Source: Candidatus Sumerlaea chitinivorans (lineage in GTDB: Bacteria; Sumerlaeota; Sumerlaeia; Sumerlaeales; Sumerlaeaceae). From it: a stretch of 64,000 bases of DNA. The position numbers were made by a program, and so were the translations under genes. Location: NCBI GenBank assembly GCA_003290465.1, contig CP030759.1, positions 1,331,144-1,395,143 on the forward strand, in the 5' to 3' direction. Every line of letters begins with the position of its first letter. Position 1 is the stretch's first letter. The notes under the pieces were generated by a model. It was given only the letters and a program-made list of their open reading frames with translations. It made no database searches and was not told the DNA's origin. This document shows positions 12,770 through 38,342 of the stretch, piece after piece.

Positions 12770-13411
12770 TTAGAGGTAATCCTTCATTAACTTTCGCAGC
12801 TCGTTGCGGGCCCGGTGGATACGCGATTTGACAGTCCCCAAAGAGACACGCAAAATTCCCGCAATTTCCTCATAAGAGAGGTCCTCAAGGTAGCGCAAGA
12901 CTAACACTTCACGGAATTCTTCTGGCAGTTGTTGCAAGTGCTGCTCTATGAGCGCGCTGAATTCATGGTCGGAAGCAATTTCGCTTGGGGATGGCTGCGT
13001 AGAGGCAAATTCCGGTTTAGGTTTACCGTCGTCCGCGCCTTCGGGATTCTCGAGAGATTGAGCCTTGTCGAGCCCTCGTGACTGCTGGTATTTCCACCGG
13101 TTTTTGACCATGTTGACCGTGATCCGGTAGAGCCAGGTGGCCAGCGAGGAATCGCCTTTGAAGGTGCCGATTTTTCGGAAGCAGTTCAGAAATACTTCCT
13201 GCGTGAGGTCGAGTGCCTCATCGTAATTGCCAAGCAGGCGGTAGGCAATATTGAACACCCGCTCCTGATGAGTGGCAATCAGCTCATCGAAGGCAAGGCG
13301 ATCCCCCGCCTTACAACGCGCAACTAACGAAGCTTCGTCGTTCCGTGAGGACGACGTCGCGTCTAAGGCGCCATAAAAGGGCTTTCCAGCAGCGTCCGCC
13401 AGCCCAGCCAC
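12770..13411 (-). CDS. ECF-type RNA polymerase sigma factor (RpoE-like)
   Basis: A 213-residue sigma-70-family ECF factor. Region 2 is seen as FDELIATHQERVFNIAYRLL followed by DALDLTQEVFL-type residues (EALDLTQEVFLN) and TWLYRITVNMVKN. Region 4 is VLVLRYLEDLSYEEIAGILRVSLGTVKSRIHRARNELRK, the helix-turn-helix that binds the -35 element. A variable acidic linker of about 40 residues lies between them. Start is GTG at 13411. The anti-sigma gene follows, so the pair most likely responds to an envelope signal. The regulon cannot be read here. Confidence 0.92.
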   Translation of the reverse strand: MAGLADAAGKPFYGALDATSSSRNDEASLVARCKAGDRLAFDELIATHQERVFNIAYRLLGNYDEALDLTQEVFLNCFRKIGTFKGDSSLATWLYRITVNMVKNRWKYQQSRGLDKAQSLENPEGADDGKPKPEFASTQPSPSEIASDHEFSALIEQHLQQLPEEFREVLVLRYLEDLSYEEIAGILRVSLGTVKSRIHRARNELRKLMKDYL

Positions 13412-25402: not shown

Positions 25403-26266
25403 TCAGGTATTGCACGGGTCGTTGTTGGTGGCAGCTCTGGCGGATGCTTGGCGGCGCCAATAGATTGCGAATGCGCCTGCGAGTGCGAACAAACTTAGCC
25501 ACTGAGAAGTCGACAAAGCCCCAAAGAAACCGCGAATTTGGTCGCCTCGCAGGAACTCCAAGAGAAAGCGGGCGACGGAATATGCCATCACGTAGACCAG
25601 CGCAATGTGGCCATCAAAGCGGCGCCGGCGCCACAGCCACAAGAGGGCGGCTGCTAAGCCAAGATTAAAAAGCGCCTCTAAAATAGGTGTAGCATAGACC
25701 GGCAGCGAATAGGCATCGGCCGTCGTAACCCATCCTTGCTCAAGGTGATCGAGGTAAGGCCACGAACCCGTAATGGCTCCATCTGGCCCCGTGAGACGCG
25801 GGTAACGGATCGCGATGAGATGACCGAGCCAGCCGTGGGCCGGGGCACCATAACAGCACCCGGCAAACAGGCATCCGATCCTGCCAAAGCAGTGCGCAAG
25901 TGCGACGGCTGGTGCGAAGACGTCCGCAACTAAAGCAAAAGGCACTTTCTTGAATCGGCAGTACGCGTACAGGGCAGCGAGTCCGCAGAAAAATCCCCCC
26001 AAAAAAACCATGCCACCGGAATTGAAGAGGGCGGCTACCGGATCGCGGAGCGTAGCGCGCCACTCAATTGCCATATAAGTGAGACGACCGCCGGCAAGCC
26101 CCGCAAGAACGACATAAAAGACCGCATCAAGCGCAAATCCCTCTGGCAACTGGGCGCGACGAGCAAGACGAGTGGCAAGCCACGTCCCCACAAGAATCCC
26201 TGTGGCCACGAACATACCGTAGGTTGGCAGGTGAAAGAGTCCCAAAACGGAAAGATACGGTTTCAT
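25403..26266 (-). CDS. lgt: Prolipoprotein diacylglyceryl transferase Lgt
   Basis: Lgt adds a diacylglyceryl group to the lipobox cysteine of prolipoproteins. The 287-residue multi-pass protein has the signature region AHCFGRIGCLFAGCCYG and the C-terminal YSVARFLLEFLRGD. Length is normal. It is transcribed alone on the minus strand, with htrA diverging from the other side. Confidence 0.93.
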   Translation of the reverse strand: MKPYLSVLGLFHLPTYGMFVATGILVGTWLATRLARRAQLPEGFALDAVFYVVLAGLAGGRLTYMAIEWRATLRDPVAALFNSGGMVFLGGFFCGLAALYAYCRFKKVPFALVADVFAPAVALAHCFGRIGCLFAGCCYGAPAHGWLGHLIAIRYPRLTGPDGAITGSWPYLDHLEQGWVTTADAYSLPVYATPILEALFNLGLAAALLWLWRRRRFDGHIALVYVMAYSVARFLLEFLRGDQIRGFFGALSTSQWLSLFALAGAFAIYWRRQASARAATNNDPCNT

Positions 26267-26422
26267 CGCTCAAAACAATGCAACTTGGAAGGGCAAGAAA
26301 TTCGATTCTGTCCTTGCAACACTGCGCCAAAATGGCACAGGATTACTCGTAGAGGCAGGTGGGTCCGCTCAGATCCGGGGCGGGTGATTAAAGAAAACCC
26401 AAGGACTCCCTACCTTTAGGCG

Positions 26423-26437
26423 TGGCACCCGACTTGC
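26423..26437 (+). promoter_or_regulatory. Sigma-54 promoter of htrA
   Basis: TGGCAC-CCGAC-TTGC matches the sigma-54 (RpoN) consensus TGGCAC-N5-TTGC exactly, with GG at 26424-26425 and GC at 26436-26437 ten bases apart. The start site would fall near 26449, giving a leader of about 40 bases before the ATG at 26491. It lies in the intergenic region on the right strand for htrA. Activation would need an enhancer-binding ATPase, not seen here. Confidence 0.75.
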
Positions 26438-26490
26438 TAACATTTGCATACCGAAAAGGCGCGAAACGCGCTTGTTGGAGGAAGAATCGT

Positions 26491-27954
26491 ATGTTTATGA
26501 GAAAAGACGGACTTAGGCTATGCGTCTTTGCCACACTACTCGTGGCTCTGAGCGGTTTTGTGCGCGCAGACCAAGTCATAACGCGTGAGACTTTTCGCAA
26601 CGTAGCTCGGAAAGTCTCGCCGGCGGTGGTAAATGTTAAGGTTCGAAGTAACATCCAATTCTCAGCCTCGGCGCCGAGTAAACTGATCCTGCCACCGGGC
26701 TTGGGGCTGGATGAAGGACTGCGAGAGGAATTGGAACGCCTCCACGAGCAGTTCTCCCCCTATATGACCCCGCGCGATGAAGAAGAGTTTAAGTATGCGC
26801 GGTCAGCCTCAGGGGTGATCATTCGACCCGAGGGTTACATTGTGACAAGCAACCACGTGATCGAGGACGTGGACCCAGCCAGTCTTGAAGTCTCGCTGCC
26901 AGATGGGCGAACCTTCACGAATGTCGAGTTGGTAGGCACGGACAAACTGACGGATTTGGCCGTTCTCAAAATTGACGGCAAGGATCTGCCCAGCGCCACA
27001 TGGGGTGACTCCGACAAGCTGGAAGTCGGCGATATGGTTGTTGCCATCGGGAACCCCCTCGATTTCACGAATAGTGTCTCAGAGGGTATCATCAGCGCAA
27101 AGCATCGCGTGATCCGCAAAGCGCCGATCGAGGATTTACTGCAAACTACCGCAATGATTAATCCCGGCAACTCGGGTGGTGCATTGGTGAACTTGGATGG
27201 CGAAGTTGTGGGCATCAATATGGCCATCGCTACGAGTACGGGGATGTGGTCGGGACTTGGTTTCGCAATCCCGAGCAAAACAGCTCGTGACGTCACAGAT
27301 CAGATCATTGCGAAAGGTCGCGTATCGCGGGGCTACCTTGGGATTGAAATGGATCCTTTGCGCAACGCCTTGGCCCGCCAACTTAACTACGATGGGAAAT
27401 ATGGGATTGTTGTGAAGAACGTCAACAAGGGCACCCCCGCGGAGCAGGCGGGGCTCCAGCGCTATGACATCATTGCCAAGGTCAACGGCGTGGAGATTAA
27501 AGACATTGATGACATGCACCGGAACATCGGAACGCGAGCTCCCGGCGATACCGTGGAACTCGAGGTGTGGCGCGACGAAGGCGGAAGTAAGCCCGTGAAA
27601 AAAATCATTCGCGTGCAGTTGGGCGAGCGGCCCACGGAGAAAGAACTTGCAGCGCGCAATCGGGCAATTGAGCAGCCCCTGCCCGGGAAAAAGGTTTCGC
27701 CTGAGCTTCTGGGGCTGGTTGTCTCGGTAGCGCCAGACAAACGCGGATTGATTATTGACGACGTCGAGAGTGGGAGTCCAGCGGCGCGTGGCGGCCTTGC
27801 GAAAGGTGACCGTATCCTGCAGGTCAACAAACAAGACGTCAACAGCGTGGAAGAACTGCGTGGCGCACTTCGAAAAAGTTCTGGAGAAGGACATTTGTTT
27901 TTCATTGAACGTGACGGATCGTCTGCTATGGTAACGATCAGTGAAAAGCCATAA
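26491..27954 (+). CDS. htrA: HtrA/DegP-family periplasmic serine protease
   Basis: A 487-residue Do-type protease that degrades or refolds misfolded envelope proteins. The start is the ATG 26491, after GGAGGAAG; a signal peptide (ends about ALSGFVRA) follows. The trypsin-like triad is H122 (SNHVIED), D155 (DLAVLK) and S228 (NPGNSGGALV). Two PDZ domains follow (GYLGIEMDPL; LLGLVVSVAPDKRG to the end), matching family length. It sits behind a sigma-54-type promoter, so stress or signal-dependent expression is likely. Confidence 0.93.
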   Translation: MFMRKDGLRLCVFATLLVALSGFVRADQVITRETFRNVARKVSPAVVNVKVRSNIQFSASAPSKLILPPGLGLDEGLREELERLHEQFSPYMTPRDEEEFKYARSASGVIIRPEGYIVTSNHVIEDVDPASLEVSLPDGRTFTNVELVGTDKLTDLAVLKIDGKDLPSATWGDSDKLEVGDMVVAIGNPLDFTNSVSEGIISAKHRVIRKAPIEDLLQTTAMINPGNSGGALVNLDGEVVGINMAIATSTGMWSGLGFAIPSKTARDVTDQIIAKGRVSRGYLGIEMDPLRNALARQLNYDGKYGIVVKNVNKGTPAEQAGLQRYDIIAKVNGVEIKDIDDMHRNIGTRAPGDTVELEVWRDEGGSKPVKKIIRVQLGERPTEKELAARNRAIEQPLPGKKVSPELLGLVVSVAPDKRGLIIDDVESGSPAARGGLAKGDRILQVNKQDVNSVEELRGALRKSSGEGHLFFIERDGSSAMVTISEKP

Positions 27955-27966
27955 GCGGCCGAGAAT

Positions 27967-28032
27967 CTTGGCGGCTTGCGGTGGATGCCTCCCTCCTCCC
28001 CCCCCTGCCCCGGCACCACCCAAGCCGCCAAG
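27967..28032. repeat. Long hairpin between htrA and moxR
   Basis: A 12-bp perfect inverted repeat (CTTGGCGGCTTG at 27967-27978, CAAGCCGCCAAG at 28021-28032) is extended inward by GGTGG/CCACC with one bulged base, about 17 bp in all, around a C-rich loop. No T-run follows, so it is not a standard terminator. It may end the htrA transcript, protect its 3' end or control moxR. Confidence 0.65.
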
Positions 28033-28114
28033 CACTTTCCCTCCCACCTTGGAATACTCAACACCGTGGGAAAGCCACGAACACTGAACTTACAGATGCT
28101 AAAGTGGAGGAATT

Positions 28115-29149
28115 ATGAATTCGGACATTCAAGCCATTACCGAACGAGTAAAGGGCGAACACCCAAGCATCGAGCGGGTGCTGGCTGAGATCGGCAAAGT
28201 CATCGTGGGTCAAAAGCCGATGATCGAACGCTTGCTCATCGGTCTTCTCACGAACGGTCACGTGCTGCTCGAAGGTGTACCGGGTTTGGCAAAGACGCTC
28301 GCGGTGAGAACGCTGGCTCGTACTATTCGGGCACATTTCCAGCGCATTCAGTTTACTCCGGATCTTTTACCGGCTGATCTTATTGGGACACTCATTTATA
28401 ATCAGAAGGACGGTACTTTTACTCCCAGAAAAGGCCCGATTTTTGCCAATCTCATCCTTGCTGACGAAGTCAACCGGGCTCCAGCAAAGGTCCAAAGTGC
28501 GCTGCTTGAAGCCATGCAGGAGCACCAAGTGACGATTGGCGATACCACGTATTCGCTGCCCGAACCTTTCCTCGTGTTAGCAACCCAGAACCCAATTGAA
28601 CAAGAAGGTACCTACCCGTTGCCCGAGGCTCAGGTTGACCGCTTCATGCTCAAACTGCGGATTTTCTACCCCAACAAGAGTGAAGAGAAACGGATACTGG
28701 ATCGCATGACGGAGGGGGATGGAACCCTCGCGGGAGGCGGCGAGAAAATGCTCGCCGATCCGTTGCAAGAGTTCAACGTCGAACCTGTCGTTAGCACCGA
28801 AGATATCATGCGGATGCGCGGAGTCGTCCGGCAAATCTACGTTGATGAAAAGGTGAAGAATTACATCCTCGACGTGATTTTTGCGACTCGTCAGCCAGCT
28901 GAGTACAAGCTCGACATTGCTCCGTATATAAAGTACGGAGCAAGCCCGCGAGCGACCATCGCCCTCACCATGGCAGCAAAGGCTTACGCCTTTTTGCGCG
29001 GACGCGGACATGTGACACCCGACGATGTAAAAACGGTAGCAGCGGACGTGCTGCGTCATCGAATTATTCTCACCTACGAAGCTGAGGCAGAAGACGTAAC
29101 CAGCGAAGCAATCATCCGGGCAATCTTCGAACAAGTGCCCGTGCCGTGA
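28115..29149 (+). CDS. MoxR-type AAA+ ATPase
   Basis: A 344-residue MoxR ATPase, first gene of the Bat operon. MoxR proteins act as chaperones that pair with von Willebrand factor A proteins. Walker A is GVPGLAKT (54-61), Walker B LADEVNRAP, with sensor 1 ATQNPIEQEGTYPLPEAQVDRF. GTGGAGG stands before the ATG at 28115. It is followed after 19 bases by the DUF58 gene. Confidence 0.93.
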   Translation: MNSDIQAITERVKGEHPSIERVLAEIGKVIVGQKPMIERLLIGLLTNGHVLLEGVPGLAKTLAVRTLARTIRAHFQRIQFTPDLLPADLIGTLIYNQKDGTFTPRKGPIFANLILADEVNRAPAKVQSALLEAMQEHQVTIGDTTYSLPEPFLVLATQNPIEQEGTYPLPEAQVDRFMLKLRIFYPNKSEEKRILDRMTEGDGTLAGGGEKMLADPLQEFNVEPVVSTEDIMRMRGVVRQIYVDEKVKNYILDVIFATRQPAEYKLDIAPYIKYGASPRATIALTMAAKAYAFLRGRGHVTPDDVKTVAADVLRHRIILTYEAEAEDVTSEAIIRAIFEQVPVP

Positions 29150-29168: not shown

Positions 29169-30083
29169 ATGGTGACGACGGGACCATCTGAACATCGCGC
29201 GGCAAGAGGACTCCCCCGTGATCTTTTGGCCAAGATCCGGCGCCTCGAGATTGTGACGCGTCGAATGGTCAATGAAGTCGTTGCGGGTCGCTACCACAGC
29301 GTTTTCAAGGGGCGCGGGATGGAGTTTGCGGAGGTCCGCGAGTACACCATTGGCGATGACGTGCGCACTATTGACTGGAATGTTACAGCACGCACGGGAG
29401 CGCCCCACGTTAAGACGTTTGTGGAAGAACGTGAGCTCAGCGTGATGTTGCTGGTGGACCTCAGTGGCTCGACGGATTTCGGCACAGCGGGAAGGCTCAA
29501 GTCGGAAATCGCCGCAGAACTTTGTGCGCTGTTGGCGTTCAGCGCGATCAAGAATAATGACCGGGTCGGGCTACTGATCTTCACAGACCACGTGGAAAAG
29601 ATTATTCCGCCGCGTAAGGGACGAAATCACGTGCTACGGGTGATTCGTGAGGTTCTGACCTTCCAACCTCAATCCCGCGGGACGAACTTTCCGGAAGCGG
29701 TCAATCGCACGCTCCGACTCTTAAAACGGAAAAGCGTTGTATTCGTGATTAGCGATTTTTGGGCGGGCCAGCTTCGCCGACCTCTGGCGCTCTTGAACAA
29801 AAAACATGACTTGATCGCCCTCGTAGTCCGCGACCCCCGGGAGTTTTCGCTACCACCTGTGGGAATCCTGACTTTGGAAGATCCTGAGACACGAGAAGTG
29901 CTGACCGTGGACACTTTTGATCCCTATTTCCGGCGCCGATATGAGGAACTTGTGCGGCAGCGTCATCAGGAACTCGAAACCATGTTTCGGCGGATGCAAG
30001 TCGATTTCGCCCTTATTGAGACCGATAAGCCTTACGTCGAGCGGATCGTAAGAATCTTTGAGAAACGAGCGATGAGGTACTGA
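29169..30083 (+). CDS. DUF58-family protein
   Basis: A 304-residue DUF58 protein, nearly always next to moxR. Seen: the DUF58 core VFKGRGMEFAEVREYTIGDDVRTIDWNVTAR, then a VWA-like part MLLVDLSGSTDFG and a C-terminal RRYEELVRQRHQEL tail. It probably works with MoxR on an envelope client. The next gene starts 3 bases after its stop. Confidence 0.92.
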   Translation: MVTTGPSEHRAARGLPRDLLAKIRRLEIVTRRMVNEVVAGRYHSVFKGRGMEFAEVREYTIGDDVRTIDWNVTARTGAPHVKTFVEERELSVMLLVDLSGSTDFGTAGRLKSEIAAELCALLAFSAIKNNDRVGLLIFTDHVEKIIPPRKGRNHVLRVIREVLTFQPQSRGTNFPEAVNRTLRLLKRKSVVFVISDFWAGQLRRPLALLNKKHDLIALVVRDPREFSLPPVGILTLEDPETREVLTVDTFDPYFRRRYEELVRQRHQELETMFRRMQVDFALIETDKPYVERIVRIFEKRAMRY

Positions 30084-30086
30084 AGA

Positions 30087-31499
30087 ATGAGGAGAAGAAA
30101 ACTTCGCGCTGAACAACCGGAGGAGGAACAGGCGGGAGCGCCCCCCAGACTTCGGGCAGGACTGTATTGGACTCTCCTTGCCGTGTTGGTGGTTGTCGCC
30201 GTGTGGAGCTACGATCGAAGGGAGCTGAAAGAGGCCCGCGCACACATGGAACAAGCCACACGCTACGAGCAGCAGTCCGATTACCTGAACGCGCTTAAGG
30301 AATATCGTGCTGCAATGGAGAATCCGCGCGTAAGTCGTCGCCAGAAGGCGGAACTTGCCATCAAAATGGCAGAGATTTATCAGGACCAACTGCGCGACGA
30401 CGAACTCGCCCTTGTTTATTTCAAGCGAGCGCAACGGTGGTATCCCCGAAGCATCGCTTCCGCAGAGATCAAATCGCGCATTACAGAGGCTCAGAAGCGA
30501 CTTCAGTCCGGGCAAAAAGACGAAGCAGGTGCGCCCGTCGAGTCGGCATCTGAGGAGCTGACTTTAGCGGAGGCGCCGAGTGAGCCCCTTGTTCCTGCAC
30601 CGGAAAGCGACCGGGAAGGCCCCGTCGTTGCGCGGATTGGATACGACGAGATTCATGCGGCGGCGCTGGCGCGCTTGCTATTACGCCAAAGCGATGCCGA
30701 GTGGCTTCTCCAGCATCCCGACGATCCGAAGCTCGATAAGTTTTTTGACACACAATTGGAGCGGGAGCTTTTGTTCCGGGGCGCTATAGCTGAAGGCTAC
30801 CATCGGTTGCAAGCTGTCCATGAGCGCCTGTACGATTATCAGCGGACACTTCTCTCGCAGCAATATGCCAAAGAGGTGGAAGAAAAGGCCAAGGTGGTGA
30901 CCGACGAAGAAGTTCGTCGGTTCTGGGAGGAAAACAAGAAGCGCTTCTCGTCGCCTGAACGCCTTGTCGTTGGCATCATCCGCCATACAACGGAAAGTGT
31001 CGTTCTCCAGGCAAAAGAGCGCCTTGCGCGGGGCGAAGACTGGGCAAAAGTTGCCGAAGCAGTCATGGGTCCCGAATCAGAAATCTCCAAGGGAATCGCT
31101 GGGACCATGTCCGCCGACGACGATGTTGTTCCGCTCATCGGAAAAGCGCCAGATCTCGCAAAAGCTCTTCGCGAAAGTAAGGAGGGAGAGGTCCTTGGAC
31201 CTATTCAACGCGACGGGACCTATGTGCTGATTAGCATTCGCGGGAGAATCCCGCGGAAAGAATCCACGCTCGACGAAGTGCGTGGACAGATTGAGGTCAT
31301 GCTGCGCTCCCGAAAGCTTTCGGAAGGGAACAAGACGTTCTTCGAGCAACTGAAGAAGAAACTCGGCTTCGAGGTGGATGCGCGAGCAAAAGCACTCGTG
31401 GTGGGCTACGCTAAAAAACTCAAGGCAGAGCAAGAGGGGACAACGGTCACCGCGACCAACGACGCCCCCAAAACGGAGGAGACCCCTGCACAGCCGTGA
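30087..31499 (+). CDS. TPR-like protein with C-terminal parvulin-type prolyl isomerase domain
   Basis: A 470-residue membrane-anchored protein. One transmembrane helix (about 25-43) is followed by a helical TPR-like part (about 46-140: YEQQSDYLNALKEYRAAME, LALVYFKRAQRWYPRS). The C-terminal half resembles SurA/PpiC: a helical lead-in, TDEEVRRFWEENKKRFSSPE, and a parvulin-like core (about 270-395). It should assist folding of periplasmic proteins. Standard Bat operons lack such a gene at this place. It sits between DUF58 and the DUF4381-like gene, overlapping the latter by 4 bases. Confidence 0.75.
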   Translation: MRRRKLRAEQPEEEQAGAPPRLRAGLYWTLLAVLVVVAVWSYDRRELKEARAHMEQATRYEQQSDYLNALKEYRAAMENPRVSRRQKAELAIKMAEIYQDQLRDDELALVYFKRAQRWYPRSIASAEIKSRITEAQKRLQSGQKDEAGAPVESASEELTLAEAPSEPLVPAPESDREGPVVARIGYDEIHAAALARLLLRQSDAEWLLQHPDDPKLDKFFDTQLERELLFRGAIAEGYHRLQAVHERLYDYQRTLLSQQYAKEVEEKAKVVTDEEVRRFWEENKKRFSSPERLVVGIIRHTTESVVLQAKERLARGEDWAKVAEAVMGPESEISKGIAGTMSADDDVVPLIGKAPDLAKALRESKEGEVLGPIQRDGTYVLISIRGRIPRKESTLDEVRGQIEVMLRSRKLSEGNKTFFEQLKKKLGFEVDARAKALVVGYAKKLKAEQEGTTVTATNDAPKTEETPAQP

Positions 31500-32473
31500 G
31501 TGGTAGGTTTCTACACGTTCAGACTGTCCTCGCTGCTGCAGTCACGGTTATGTTGTTGCTCGTCGTTGCCACGTGCGCAAGCGCGTCCGTCAAGCTCACC
31601 GACTATACAGTTGCCCCCGCGGAGGGACGAGTTGGCGATGTCTTCACGCTAAGCCTTCAGCTCGATGGCATGACGACCCAGATCCGTGAGATTCGAGCAC
31701 TGATCGACGAAAACGACGTGCTTTCCAGTTGGACGCAGATTGGACGGCCAGAAGTGCGCGTGCGAGATGAGGGCAGAAAAACTGCTGAAGCCATCCTCCG
31801 ACTTCAAGCTTTGCAGCCGGGCCGGCTCCACTTGCCGCCGGTAGAAATTACCGCCGATAGTGGAGCCACAACTTTCACTGTGTTCACGCTCGATGCAGAG
31901 ATTCCAGTTAGCTCGACCCTCACCGCTGCTGATGAGGAAGTAACAAGTGCGCGGATCGCTCTTCTGGAGGTCATCCCACGCTGGGTCTTCTGGTTACTTT
32001 ACGGACTGGTAGGGGCGATCGTGGGTGGCCTCGCGGCAGCCATAGCTTTTGCTCTTGTTCGCTGGTGGCGCCGCACTCATGCACCGCAACCGAAAACTTT
32101 GGACGAATGGGCGCTCGACCAGCTTCAAGCGTTGGAAACGGCCGACCTTCTTGAGCGCAAGCGTTTCAAGGAATTCTACACAAGCCTTTCTGACGTTATC
32201 CGGGAATACATGGGACGCTTGTTCGAGTTCGATGCGATGGAGCTGACGAGCAGTGAATTGCTGGACCGTGTGGCGGACAAGCCTCTCGACGACGAGGTGC
32301 GAACCGACCTGACCAAGCTGCTTGAGGAGAGTGACTTGGTCAAGTTTGCCAAGTACGTTCCTGAGATCGCCGAGTGCCGACGCTCACTCGATCGGGCACG
32401 CCGAATCATTCGCCGTACCGCACCATTGCTGAAGCCACCGGAAGGTGAAAATTCACGGCGGGAGGAAGCGTAA
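31496..32473 (+). CDS. DUF4381-like membrane protein of the Bat operon
   Basis: A 325-residue protein with a signal peptide, an N-terminal beta-rich periplasmic domain (about 30-140), one transmembrane helix (about 160-190) and a cytoplasmic helical tail containing FYTSLSDVIREYMGRLF and AMELTSSELLDR. That tail resembles DUF4381 proteins and the C-terminus of BatD. Start is GTG at 31496, overlapping the previous stop (GTGA). Probably a scaffold for the VWA proteins. Confidence 0.7.
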   Translation: MSGRFLHVQTVLAAAVTVMLLLVVATCASASVKLTDYTVAPAEGRVGDVFTLSLQLDGMTTQIREIRALIDENDVLSSWTQIGRPEVRVRDEGRKTAEAILRLQALQPGRLHLPPVEITADSGATTFTVFTLDAEIPVSSTLTAADEEVTSARIALLEVIPRWVFWLLYGLVGAIVGGLAAAIAFALVRWWRRTHAPQPKTLDEWALDQLQALETADLLERKRFKEFYTSLSDVIREYMGRLFEFDAMELTSSELLDRVADKPLDDEVRTDLTKLLEESDLVKFAKYVPEIAECRRSLDRARRIIRRTAPLLKPPEGENSRREEA

Positions 32474-33495
32474 TGAAACCGGCATGGCTTACGCTTTTTG
32501 CTCCTGCGACTGAAGGGGATTATTTCCGCTTTGCCACGCCGCAGTACCTTTGGGGGCTTCTGGCCATTCCGGTGCTCTGGCTTTTATTTGAGTATTTGGA
32601 TCGCCACCCACGCGTCACGCTGCGTTTCGCCACAATCCAGATCCTGAAAATGGCGCGACCGAGTAGCGGGCGCTGGCAATCGCGCACAGTGCGTTTCTTT
32701 CGAATTCTCAGTATCGCGCTATGCGTGCTCGCCCTTGCACGGCCACAATATGGACGCGTCGAACGGAAAAGCTTTAGCGAGGGCATTGACATCATGCTTG
32801 TGCTCGATGTGTCAGGCTCGATGCGCTCGCAGGACTTTGTGCCGAACCGGTTAGAAGCCGCCAAAGAGGTGCTCAAAGAATTCGTCGCGAATCGGCAAGG
32901 CGATCGAATTGGATTGGTCATCTTTGCCGCTACCGCTGCAAGCCTTGTACCCCTGACATTGGATCATGTGGTGGTGCAACAGTTTATTGAGCGGGTACGC
33001 TTCGGCTTATTGGATGAGAACAGCACCGCAATTGGCCTTGGGATCATGACGGGACTGAAAAAGCTCGAGCGCAGCGACGCCAAAAGCAAAATCATGATCT
33101 TACTGACGGATGGGCAGAACAACGCGGGCAATGTAGACCCGCTCACTGCGGCGGAAGCAGCGCGGGCAATGAAGGTACGTATCTATACCATTGGGGTGGG
33201 GACCGAAAACGTTCCAGCAGGTCTGTTTGGGTTTACCGCTCCGGACGCAGGACTGGACGAAAAAACGCTGAAAGAAATCGCAAGCAAGACAGGGGGGCTC
33301 TACTTTCACGCTACGGATAACGCTAAGCTTCGTGGGATTTACGAGCAGATCGACAAGCTTGAGAAAACCAGGATCGAGTCTACGCAGTTCGACAATTTCA
33401 ACGAACTGGCCCCGTGGTTCCTGGCCGGGGCCCTCGCGGTGCTGATACTGGAAATCCTCTTTGCAACGACACGAGGAATGAGGTTGCCGCTGTGA
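32473..33495 (+). CDS. batA: VWA-domain membrane protein BatA
   Basis: A 340-residue aerotolerance-type protein: two N-terminal transmembrane helices, a VWA domain with the metal-binding MIDAS motif DVSGS (D112, S114, S116) and a C-terminal transmembrane helix. The N-terminal YFRFATPQYLWGLLAIPVL is the family start. Its ATG shares one base with the previous stop (TAATG). Confidence 0.9.
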   Translation: MKPAWLTLFAPATEGDYFRFATPQYLWGLLAIPVLWLLFEYLDRHPRVTLRFATIQILKMARPSSGRWQSRTVRFFRILSIALCVLALARPQYGRVERKSFSEGIDIMLVLDVSGSMRSQDFVPNRLEAAKEVLKEFVANRQGDRIGLVIFAATAASLVPLTLDHVVVQQFIERVRFGLLDENSTAIGLGIMTGLKKLERSDAKSKIMILLTDGQNNAGNVDPLTAAEAARAMKVRIYTIGVGTENVPAGLFGFTAPDAGLDEKTLKEIASKTGGLYFHATDNAKLRGIYEQIDKLEKTRIESTQFDNFNELAPWFLAGALAVLILEILFATTRGMRLPL

Positions 33496-34510
33496 GATTC
33501 GCAAACCCACATTTCCTTTGGTTGCTTTTTGCGCTACCTGCTCTTATGGGATTGATGGCTTTGCGCGGATGGCGCCGCCGCCGGTTGTTGGCCCGCTTCG
33601 CGGATTCATCCCTCCACCCCTATCTCGCGCCGAACTTTTCGCCACATCTCTACCGAATTAAGCAAATGCTTCTGGTTGCAGCTGCAGCTCTGCTCATCAT
33701 CGGGGGCGCACGGCCTCAATGGGGATACGAAGAGCGGCGTATCGTTAGCCGCGGCATCGATTTGTTGATCGCCGTGGATGTGTCGCAGAGCATGCTTGCT
33801 CAGGACTATAAGCCAAACCGCTTGGCCCGCGCAAAGGACCTTCTTCAGAATATCCTATGGGAGTTGAAAGGCGACCGGGTTGGCATCATCGCTTTTGCAG
33901 GGGAGGCTGTGATTCAGTGCCCTCTTACGATTGACTACGGTATGGCGAAGGCCGCCCTTGATACACTGGACACGAATGCGGTGGCCACTCCGGGAACCCA
34001 TATCGGCGCCGCGATTGATGCTGCGATTCGTGCGTTCGATACAGCGGCAAGTGGCGAACGAGTCCTAATTCTCCTCACCGACGGCGAAGACAATGAGGGG
34101 CAGGGCGTTACGATGGCAGAGAAGGCCAAAGCCCACAAAATCCGGATCCACACGATCGGGATCGGAACAAGTGAGGGCATGCCCATCCCGGTCGAGGGGG
34201 GAAGTTACAAACAAGACAAAGAAGGCCGACTTGTTGCGACAAAGCTCGACTTCGCCACGCTTTCGAAAATCGCAGAGATCACCGGAGGACAAGCTATAAA
34301 AGCCAACCCAGAAGGCATTGCGGAGCTGGTGCCTATTCTCAGCGACATAGAAAAGACAGTAAAGACCCAACAACAGGACACTGTGTTCCGCGTGTACACA
34401 GAACGATTCGCGTGGTTTGTGATTCCGGCACTTCTTTTGCTTTGTATCGAGGCGCTCATGCAGTGCTACGTTCGCCGTGAAATTCCTTGGCGGGGAAGTG
34501 TGCTCGAGCA

Positions 34511-34514
<4 letters not shown>
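33492..34514 (+). CDS. batB: VWA-domain membrane protein BatB
   Basis: A 340-residue paralogue of BatA. I start it at the GTG 33492 (overlapping the BatA stop as GTGA), because the protein then begins RFANPHFLWLLFALP, the family start; an upstream in-frame ATG at 33414 lies inside batA. The MIDAS motif is DVSQS (D96, S98, S100) and a closing transmembrane helix (FVIPALLLLCIEALM) is present. Confidence 0.9.
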
Positions 34515-35592
<1,078 letters not shown>

Positions 35593-35596
<4 letters not shown>

Positions 35597-37566
35597 GAAT
35601 GATGGTAGCGAGACTGCGAAACATGTATCCTCGTCTCTGGGGATGCCTTGTGATTCTCATTTGCGGAATTACATTCAGTGTAGCGGCGCAAGATTGCACC
35701 CTCAGTGCGTTTGTTGAGCCATCAAATGCCGTGGTTGGGCAATCGATCCTCTACATTTTGAAGCTCGAGTGCGCCGAAAAACCGGATGGCCCACCTGATT
35801 TGCCCCTCATTGATTCCGACTTGGGATTCAGTGATTTTCGTTCAGCAGGGACAAGTTCACAGCTTCAGATCGTGAACGGGCGGGTGTCGCAAACTTTTGA
35901 GTATCGCTACAGCTTTAGCGTCAGTCGGAAGGGGCGCTTCAAGATACCGCCTGCAAGGATCGTGGTTGGAGAACGCGAACTCAAAAGTAACGAAGTCGAG
36001 ATCGTGATTGGCGACACGCCGTCTGCGCCCGCTGCAAATCTCCCGGAGGAACTCCGGGGACGGATTGCCCCACCTCAAGTTCAGGGCAATCCACGCCTCC
36101 AGAATGCCCTGTTTGGCAAGATCTTCGTGCTGGCTGTGCCAGAAACAACGAGCCCCGTGGCTGGTCAACAGTTTCTGCTGAGCTATTATCTCGGTATCGA
36201 GCAAGAGGCCCTCCAGCGGGCTGGATTCGACGTCAGTCGATTTCGGGGCGGAGGCGTAGAGGTTCCGGACTTCCAAGGTTTTGTAAAGGACGAGATTTTT
36301 CCTCTCCCCCAGCGCCTGAGTTTCCGCGAGCAAATGATTGAGGGGCGACGCTATGTTTTTGCGCCTTTATACCAAGTGGCGATTACCCCAACCCGTACAG
36401 GCAAGCTCACAATTGAACCGTTTCAGCTGAGTTTATCTTTCCCCTACCGGGGAGCAAGGCCACGACCGCTCACCGGTGGCCCATTTTTTGACGACTTCTT
36501 TGATTTTGACTTTGGTCTACTGGATTCTATCCCGATCACCGTTTCCTCAATTCCGGTCACCATCGATGTTCAGGCTCTACCGAGACCGGCGGACGGAACA
36601 AACTTTTCTGGTGCGGTGGGTGCCTTCTCGCTAAAAGCTGAACTCGACAAATCGCGCGCGAAAGCAAACGAGGATGTTGTCCGACTGCGTGTCGTTCTGG
36701 AAGGAGAGGGAAACGCCAGTGCGGCTTCGCCTCCCGTTCTTCCTCAGATCGAAGGAGTTAGCCTGCTCGAAGAACCCAAAAGCTCAAGCGAGCGACGCAT
36801 TGAGAACGATAAGCTGATTTCACGCAAATCGTTCGACTACTTGCTTCGCCCTGTGAAAGAAGGCGAAGTGAGTATTCCATCGCTTGAACTCACGGTATAC
36901 AACGTAAAGTCTGGACAGTATGAGACGCTGAGAACTGAGCCACTCAATCTTTTGGTCGCTCCGGGGATTGCACGACCTGCACTGGTCGCGCCGTTAGCGT
37001 CGGCGACATCCACCACGACTTCGTCCGGTGGGCTCAGCAGCGTCACTCCGCGAACGGATCTTCGTTACATCCACGACCGACCACTTCGCGTTGATAAGGG
37101 TAGGTGGATCGTCCTGCGTCGGCCTTGGATCTATGGGTCAGTGGGTCTGCCCGCGTTGTTGGTCGCCATGGCGTTTGTCTTCGGAAAACGCCGGGAGCGA
37201 ATTCTGGCGGATTTGCAAGGCTACCGTCGTTCGAGGGCACGAAGTCGTGCGGAGGACGCACTTGCTTCGGCAAAACGCCGTGCTGAGAAGGCGCCCGTGG
37301 ATGCCTTTGCGGCAATCGGCGATGCCTTGCGAACGTATTTTGCGGACAAACTGGGACGCGAGAGCGCGGGAGCGCTGACAGCTGAAGAGATTTTGACGCT
37401 CTTAGAGGAGCGCGGAGTAAGCCCAGAGACGCGAGCTCAACTGCGGTCCGCGTTGGAGCAGTGCGACTCCGTGCGGTACGCACCTGCTAGTGCCACAGCG
37501 GCCGATGCTAAAGCCCTCGCCCATCAGGTGGCCCAGCTCTTGGAGGAAGTGGACCAATGCTTGTGA
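35593..37566 (+). CDS. batD: BatD-family protein
   Basis: A 657-residue BatD (oxygen-tolerance) protein. A signal peptide (ends TFSVAAQ) is followed by beta-sandwich repeats with the family text VGQSILYILKLE, FRSAGTSSQLQIVNGRVSQTFEYRY and RPVKEGEVSIPSL. One transmembrane helix (about 515-535) and a helical tail with FAAIGDALRTYFADKLG and LTAEEILTLLEE end it. Start GTG 35593 overlaps the previous stop as GTGA. Confidence 0.9.
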
Positions 37567-38342
37567 GACGATGGCTTGCCCATGTCGTGATTTGTCTAAC
37601 TCTCGTTTTCGGTATTGCCTCCGGCGCCAGCGGTGAGCCGGAACAAAGCAACTTGCAAACGACCGCATCCGTCGAACAGACGTTTCGGGAGGCAAACCAA
37701 GCATATCGAGAAAAACGTTTCTTAGAGGCGCAGCAGCTCTACGAACAGTTAGTCGAGCAAGGCATCGTTTCGGCGGACCTATTTTATAATCTTGGCACCA
37801 CCTATGCGCAACTGGGAGACAGTGGACGAGCTGTGCTCTACCTTGAAAAGGCACGGCGGCTTGCGCCGAGGGACCGCGATATACAAGCCAATCTACGATT
37901 GCTCGAACCGCCGATGAACCGGGCGCACGAACGCTTGTGGCACCAACTCATGCTGAGCCTCACCTTCGATGAGTGGCTGTCGGTCTTCTTCATCGTTTAC
38001 GTCGTTTGTGCCTTGTCATGGGCAGCATGGTTTTGGAGGCCGCGTGCTCAAAGGAGCCGCCTCCTCAAGGCCAGCGCCATCACCTTATCAGTAGCGGCCA
38101 TCGTAGTGGGAACGTGCGCGGGAGTTAGCTATTACTACACACAAGCCACACGGTATGGCGTTGTGCTCACGCCGGGGGCGATTGTGCGTAGCGGCCCAGC
38201 CGAGCGCTTCAGTGAGCTCATCCGGGCACCAGAAGGATTGAAGCTCGGAGTTGAGACTTACCAGGACCCAGATTGGAAAGTAGTGTATTTTCCTGATGGA
38301 CAGCTGGGTTACATTCGTTCGACCGATATTCAGGAGATTTAG
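37557..38342 (+). CDS. batE: BatE-family TPR/SH3 protein
   Basis: A 261-residue last gene of the Bat operon. A signal peptide, TPR repeats (FREANQAYREKRFLEAQQLYEQL, DLFYNLGTTYAQLGDSGRAVLYLEKARRL), two transmembrane helices (about 135-155 and 170-190) and a C-terminal bacterial SH3-like domain (VVLTPGAIVRSGPAERFSEL to the end). It overlaps batD by 10 bases. Confidence 0.88.
   Translation: MLVRRWLAHVVICLTLVFGIASGASGEPEQSNLQTTASVEQTFREANQAYREKRFLEAQQLYEQLVEQGIVSADLFYNLGTTYAQLGDSGRAVLYLEKARRLAPRDRDIQANLRLLEPPMNRAHERLWHQLMLSLTFDEWLSVFFIVYVVCALSWAAWFWRPRAQRSRLLKASAITLSVAAIVVGTCAGVSYYYTQATRYGVVLTPGAIVRSGPAERFSELIRAPEGLKLGVETYQDPDWKVVYFPDGQLGYIRSTDIQEI

Follow-up and report, generated by a model that had tools for sequence, protein, structure and literature searches.

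The window, the whole 64,000-nucleotide stretch of DNA analysed here, carries an htrA gene that is divergent from lgt and is followed by moxR, a DUF58 gene, a gene for a PPIC-type peptidyl-prolyl isomerase and a run of Bat-type genes. The genes from htrA onwards all run in one direction, and the PPIC-type isomerase is presumably an envelope foldase. Positions of these genes, of the control elements described below and of the candidate activator gene are collected in Table 1.

Table 1. Features of the htrA locus (window coordinates) and the candidate activator gene (genome coordinates).
Feature	Position	Strand	Basis or remark
lgt	25403-26266	-	Divergent from htrA
Enhancer palindrome TGCGCCAAAATGGCACA, proposed activator binding site	26323-26339	.	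Kept in 6/6 testable family loci
Sigma-54 -24/-12 promoter TGGCACCCGACTTGCT	26423-26438	+	Exact match; kept in 7/7 family loci
htrA: signal sequence, trypsin-like domain, two PDZ domains	26491-27954	+	Pfam
Hairpin with C-rich loop, htrA-moxR gap	27967-28032	+	Fold z -4.2; 6/7 family loci
moxR (AAA)	28115-29149	+	Pfam; synteny in 7/7 family loci
DUF58 protein	29169-30083	+	Pfam
PPIC-type peptidyl-prolyl isomerase	30087-31499	+	Pfam
Bat-type genes: BatD-like, two vWA/BatA, TPR, BatD, TPR	31496-38342	+	Open reading frames, Pfam
L006 response regulator	G000:C1:1028196-1029581	-	Receiver, AAA with GAFTGA, Fis-type HTH

The initial annotation had placed a full match to the sigma-54 consensus TGGCAC-N5-TTGC in front of htrA, intergenic, on the correct strand and about 54 bases before the start codon. 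This description holds: TGGCACCCGACTTGC (26423-26437, + strand) is the sole exact TGGCAC-N5-TTGC in the window, it lies in the gap between the divergent lgt and htrA genes with GG and GC ten bases apart, and its GC is 53 nt from the htrA ATG (26491), which is itself preceded by a GGAGG ribosome site. The sigma-54 consensus continues with G after TGGCAC, whereas the following base in this site is C. By the convention that a sigma-54 start site lies 12 nt after the C of the -12 element, the htrA transcript is predicted to begin near 26449. A scan of the + strand for sigma-70-type promoters, from 26250 to the htrA ATG, gave no promoter-like site, and when the 150 nt ahead of the htrA start were shuffled 2000 times, no equally good sigma-54 site arose.

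An exact match is by itself only modest evidence, since TGGCACN5TTGCW occurs nine times in the whole genome (3,289,105 bases in a single contig) compared with four times for the reversed control pattern. In the window, matches with up to two mismatches number 77 against a chance mean of 73.7, indicating no excess. One of the nine exact genome matches lies in an apparent CRISPR array and at least three lie within long reading frames. The match in the array (L055, G000:C1:2835258-2835273) is inside a spacer and is a chance match. Another (L050, G000:C1:1060910-1060925) lies a short distance ahead of a pseudopilin-like gene of type II secretion. The window also contains an ECF-type sigma-factor region (PF08281) at 12797-12952 on the - strand; PF08281 sigma-factor regions in the genome number five.

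The family comprises eight genomes; the search threshold for htrA was reached in seven of them, and not in G032, which is 66% complete. A -24/-12 element precedes the htrA start at every one of the seven loci (TGGCACCCGACTTGCT, TGGCATAGAAGTTGCT, TGGCATGTTAGTTGCT, TGGCACGCTCTTCGCC, TGGCACGATTGTCGCC, CGGCACACTCTTCGCA and TGGCACGATGTTCGCT), with GC-to-start distances of 53, 49, 34, 50, 59, 45 and 60 nt; the distance of 34 (L020) would be 49 with the third in-frame ATG as the start. Equally good elements arose in shuffled sequence at a frequency of 0 to 0.017 per locus, and control windows gave 0, 3 and 14 hits in 376 at 1, 2 and 3 mismatches, respectively. Mean information per column over the seven loci was 1.84 bits in the element, with GG and GC imposed by the search, versus 0.39 in flanks that are otherwise unrelated. 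Invariance in the family extends to bases that were not imposed, namely the C and A that follow GG and the T that opens TTGC. Since lgt was found upstream of htrA only in our genome, whereas moxR follows htrA at all seven loci, the promoter travels with htrA.

A second conserved element, first spotted by eye, is a 17-bp palindrome (TGYGNCA-N3-TGNCRCA) whose centre lies 92 bp before the promoter at 26423. At the six family loci that could be counted, the distances to the promoter are 92, 101, 92, 111, 114 and 82 bp; L023 was left out of the count because a contig end cuts the locus. At L021 the palindrome departs from the pattern in two positions, as does another candidate there, at 92. When scored with a leave-one-out matrix, the palindrome was the best site in the -150 to -50 region at all six loci, and between 5 and 15 of 2205 null windows scored as well, a rate that also held when both same-genus loci were left out together. 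The conserved palindrome thus constitutes a predicted upstream activator site.

Palindrome-like places with 0-1 mismatch number 33 in our genome versus 25 in the control, and none of the 33 except that at htrA has a sigma-54 site (up to two mismatches) 70-120 bp downstream. The other exact copy of the palindrome in our genome (L058) was rejected, there being no sigma-54 site nearby. A joint pattern, consisting of the palindrome core, a spacing of 78-108 nt and TGGC-N7-TYGC, occurs once in our genome, at htrA, compared with 0 in the control, and a mis-spaced, off-register version of the pattern did not hit htrA. The joint pattern recovered htrA in five of the seven family genomes searched; it missed G031 because the spacing there is shorter than allowed, and G035 because of a contig cut. 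Among the matches listed for the seven genomes there were 26, of which 21 lie away from htrA, mostly in G034 and G035.

Outside the family but within the phylum Sumerlaeota, 29 htrA loci were scanned from 26 genomes, of which three contribute two copies each; G010, with a contig that reaches only about 480 nt upstream, was excluded. Training of the palindrome matrix used the family of our genome alone, and a pair was scored when a palindrome of at least 14 bits was followed, 60-230 bp downstream, by TGGYAY-N5-TTGH with one mismatch allowed. The pair precedes htrA at 14 of the 29 loci versus 3 of 862 overlapping control windows, a count to which G013, G016, G007 and G009 contribute no independent evidence as regards the promoter, since its relaxed form was framed after their intergenic regions had been read. 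The 14 positive loci represent 13 genomes and eight families (f2-f6, f8, f10 and f11). Raising the palindrome threshold to 16 bits left 12 of 29 loci versus 3 of 862 control windows. Perfect relaxed promoters were found at 8/29 loci compared with 1/308 controls, and relaxed promoters with YGG at 15/29 compared with 3/308; the relaxed -12 forms, GT and GA, were those adopted after reading the four loci. A first scan of the other families, in which GC was demanded at -12, was nearly negative, an outcome that the relaxed form reverses.

The same matrix scan found no strong palindrome at the htrA loci of G012, G008 and families f7, f9, f12, f13 and f14. Five loci in f12 and f13 (L223, L226, L233, L234 and L236) have CGGTAT or CGGTAC-N5-TTG[AT] before htrA together with a weak palindrome or none, and these elements may be the same promoter answering to a different activator. 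At the htrA locus of G039 (L045 / L231), a genome from another class, a full sigma-54 promoter, TGGCACATTACTTGCT, precedes htrA and the palindrome is absent. With the promoter kept at 7/7 family loci, the palindrome at 6/6 testable ones and the pair present at 14/29 outside loci, the comparison provides good support for the RpoN control of htrA that the initial annotation had put forward, as a prediction drawn from sequence. The rpoN gene, on whose presence that proposal had been made to depend, is found in the genome, and the enhancer-binding protein that was to be sought has nine counterparts, all genuine activators as judged by domain score, with GAFTGA activators among them. Three weaker activator matches (L011-L013), one of which is the moxR product, were set aside. 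Excluding activators by their GAFTGA variants was dropped because, in the part of PMC4641369 available to us, GAFTHA, GAFTDA and GSFTGA activators are reported as competent.

Among the nine activators, L006 has the domains of an NtrC-type two-component activator (Table 1) and a partner, a histidine kinase gene that precedes it at a distance of 5 bp. Hydrophobic segments of the kinase at about 11-43 and 198-227 flank some 155 residues that are predicted to be periplasmic. Of five further family members inspected, four have the kinase beside the L006-type activator, and none was seen at the G035 locus. L006-type proteins carry GAFTGA or GSFTGA, and the recognition helix LGISRRTL is common to the nine L006-type C-termini compared. 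An activator gene lies directly upstream of htrA, on the same strand, at 5 of 33 loci (G013, G016, G007, G009 and G019), although for several of the 33 the sequence available upstream was shorter than 2 kb. In a tree of 77 activators, the genes from G013, G016, G007 and G009 group with the L006 group of the family (100/99), so that in four other families the palindrome and promoter lie between an L006-type activator gene and htrA. The gene order in G013 is kinase, membrane-protein gene, activator, htrA. The membrane-protein gene, about 2.6 to 1.9 kb before htrA in locus L212, encodes 237 residues, and its product is a possible accessory sensor. No L006-type gene was found in G034, although the htrA gene of G034 has both promoter and palindrome.

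Auto-regulation of the activator was considered and rejected: no palindrome precedes the L006 gene, and no matrix match of at least 11 bits was found upstream of the activator reading frames, except in G029, where it is 901 nt off. A gene beside L007 that had been guessed to encode a periplasmic foldase actually encodes a subtilase, and for L007 orthologs such a neighbour was seen in just the two genomes of a single related genus.

We think it likely that htrA has a working sigma-54 promoter that is fired via an activator bound at the palindrome, most likely L006 with its kinase, and that this raises HtrA and probably the MoxR-Bat proteins. An envelope signal would act on the histidine kinase beside L006, which would phosphorylate L006. 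Phosphorylated L006 would then sit on the palindrome at 26323-26339, and a DNA loop would bring it to RpoN polymerase waiting at 26423-26438, where ATP-driven opening would lead to the production of HtrA and probably of the MoxR-Bat proteins too.

Co-regulation of moxR and the genes behind it with htrA is likely, by transcription that would continue past the hairpin. The hairpin, with a loop of roughly 20 nt, lies in the 160-nt htrA-moxR gap (27955-28114), is present in a single copy in the genome and gave no Rfam match above threshold. It may adjust or limit the co-regulation of moxR-Bat, raising the possibility of an RNA-level control or brake. Alternatively, the promoter serves htrA alone, in which case the transcript would be terminated or processed at the hairpin and moxR-Bat would be driven from a separate promoter. 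A strong, single-copy hairpin that is kept in this gap at six of seven family loci speaks for such an arrangement, but the hairpin lacks a T run behind it and is absent from the output of the terminator scan, and in G033 the gap is 30 nt long and without a hairpin. We regard a promoter for htrA alone as possible though the less probable case; it concerns extent only and is compatible with activation of htrA through the palindrome, so that the weight given to it overlaps with that given to the other readings.

Less probable still is that the same sigma-54 promoter and enhancer answer to another activator, namely L004, L005, L007 or L010, or a shared one in f12. Each of these four has reciprocal best hits in 6/6 relatives compared with 5/6 for L006, and the htrA-adjacent activator of G019 groups with L004 in the tree of 77. 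However, four of the five htrA-adjacent activators are of the L006 type, and L007 and L004 occur widely across the phylum, including where the palindrome is missing; we consider this rival improbable. A chance site, with htrA transcribed from a sigma-70 or ECF promoter that went unseen, is very improbable: near matches in the window are at chance expectation, the exact genome matches number nine against four for the reversed control and PF08281 regions do occur in the genome, but the element and palindrome are kept throughout the family loci, the pair recurs in other families, and nothing sigma-70-like was found upstream of htrA on the + strand.

Returning to activation by L006 and its kinase, we lean slightly towards a wider proposal, in which most of Sumerlaeota would have one dedicated kinase/sigma-54 activator/promoter circuit directed at what is essentially one operon, htrA-moxR-Bat, as an ancestral stand-in for sigma-E and Cpx, the activator gene still being beside htrA in several families. 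Sumerlaeota is an uncultivated phylum from which, to our knowledge, no pure culture has been reported. A conserved RpoN circuit in place of sigma-E and Cpx would provide it with a promoter under regulation and with a kinase as candidate sensor, would show that an all-or-none, ATP-driven promoter can govern envelope protein quality control, and would connect HtrA with the MoxR-Bat genes, which are poorly understood.

In E. coli, degP/htrA is controlled by sigma-E and CpxA/CpxR, and HtrA induction is a textbook output. The circuit proposed here would resemble these systems in that an envelope signal raises HtrA; it would differ in using RpoN and an ATP-driven activator, whereas they use an ECF sigma factor or an OmpR-type regulator with sigma-70-family polymerase. 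The phage-shock response is also a sigma-54 envelope response with few targets, but its activator, PspF, has one component, is held by PspA and acts on psp genes, whereas the candidate here is two-component and its target would be htrA.

An incomplete literature search, with sources available in part, did not turn up a paper that places htrA or degP under a sigma-54 promoter. PMC3162934, which names neither gene in its main text, argues for broad links between sigma-54 and the cell exterior. Possible near-precedents come from Bradyrhizobium, where the available part of PMC13207237 has htrA among genes detected only in the double rpoN mutant data set, and from a paper on Nla28, the main article of which has HtrA in its reference list only (PMC9765219, available in part). 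The nearest published arrangements, as far as the accessible parts of the sources go, are the envelope-stress activators of Desulfovibrio vulgaris and QseE/QseF (GlrK/GlrR) of E. coli. DVU1419 and DVU3381 are, as here, response-regulator activators of sigma-54 promoters and are annotated with envelope stress response, but their listed targets are other operons, and htrA and degP are absent from the main text (PMC4641369). QseE/QseF, which acts on glmY and rpoE P2, shares with the proposed circuit a two-component sigma-54 activator, upstream palindromic sites and an output in envelope homeostasis (PMC6075780). With a different palindrome and a different gene, the htrA locus falls outside the QseE/QseF regulon: the QseE/QseF site is TGT-N12-ACA, compared with TGYGNCA-N3-TGNCRCA here, and its targets are the regulators rpoE and glmY, whereas the circuit in Sumerlaeota would act on htrA directly (PMC6075780).
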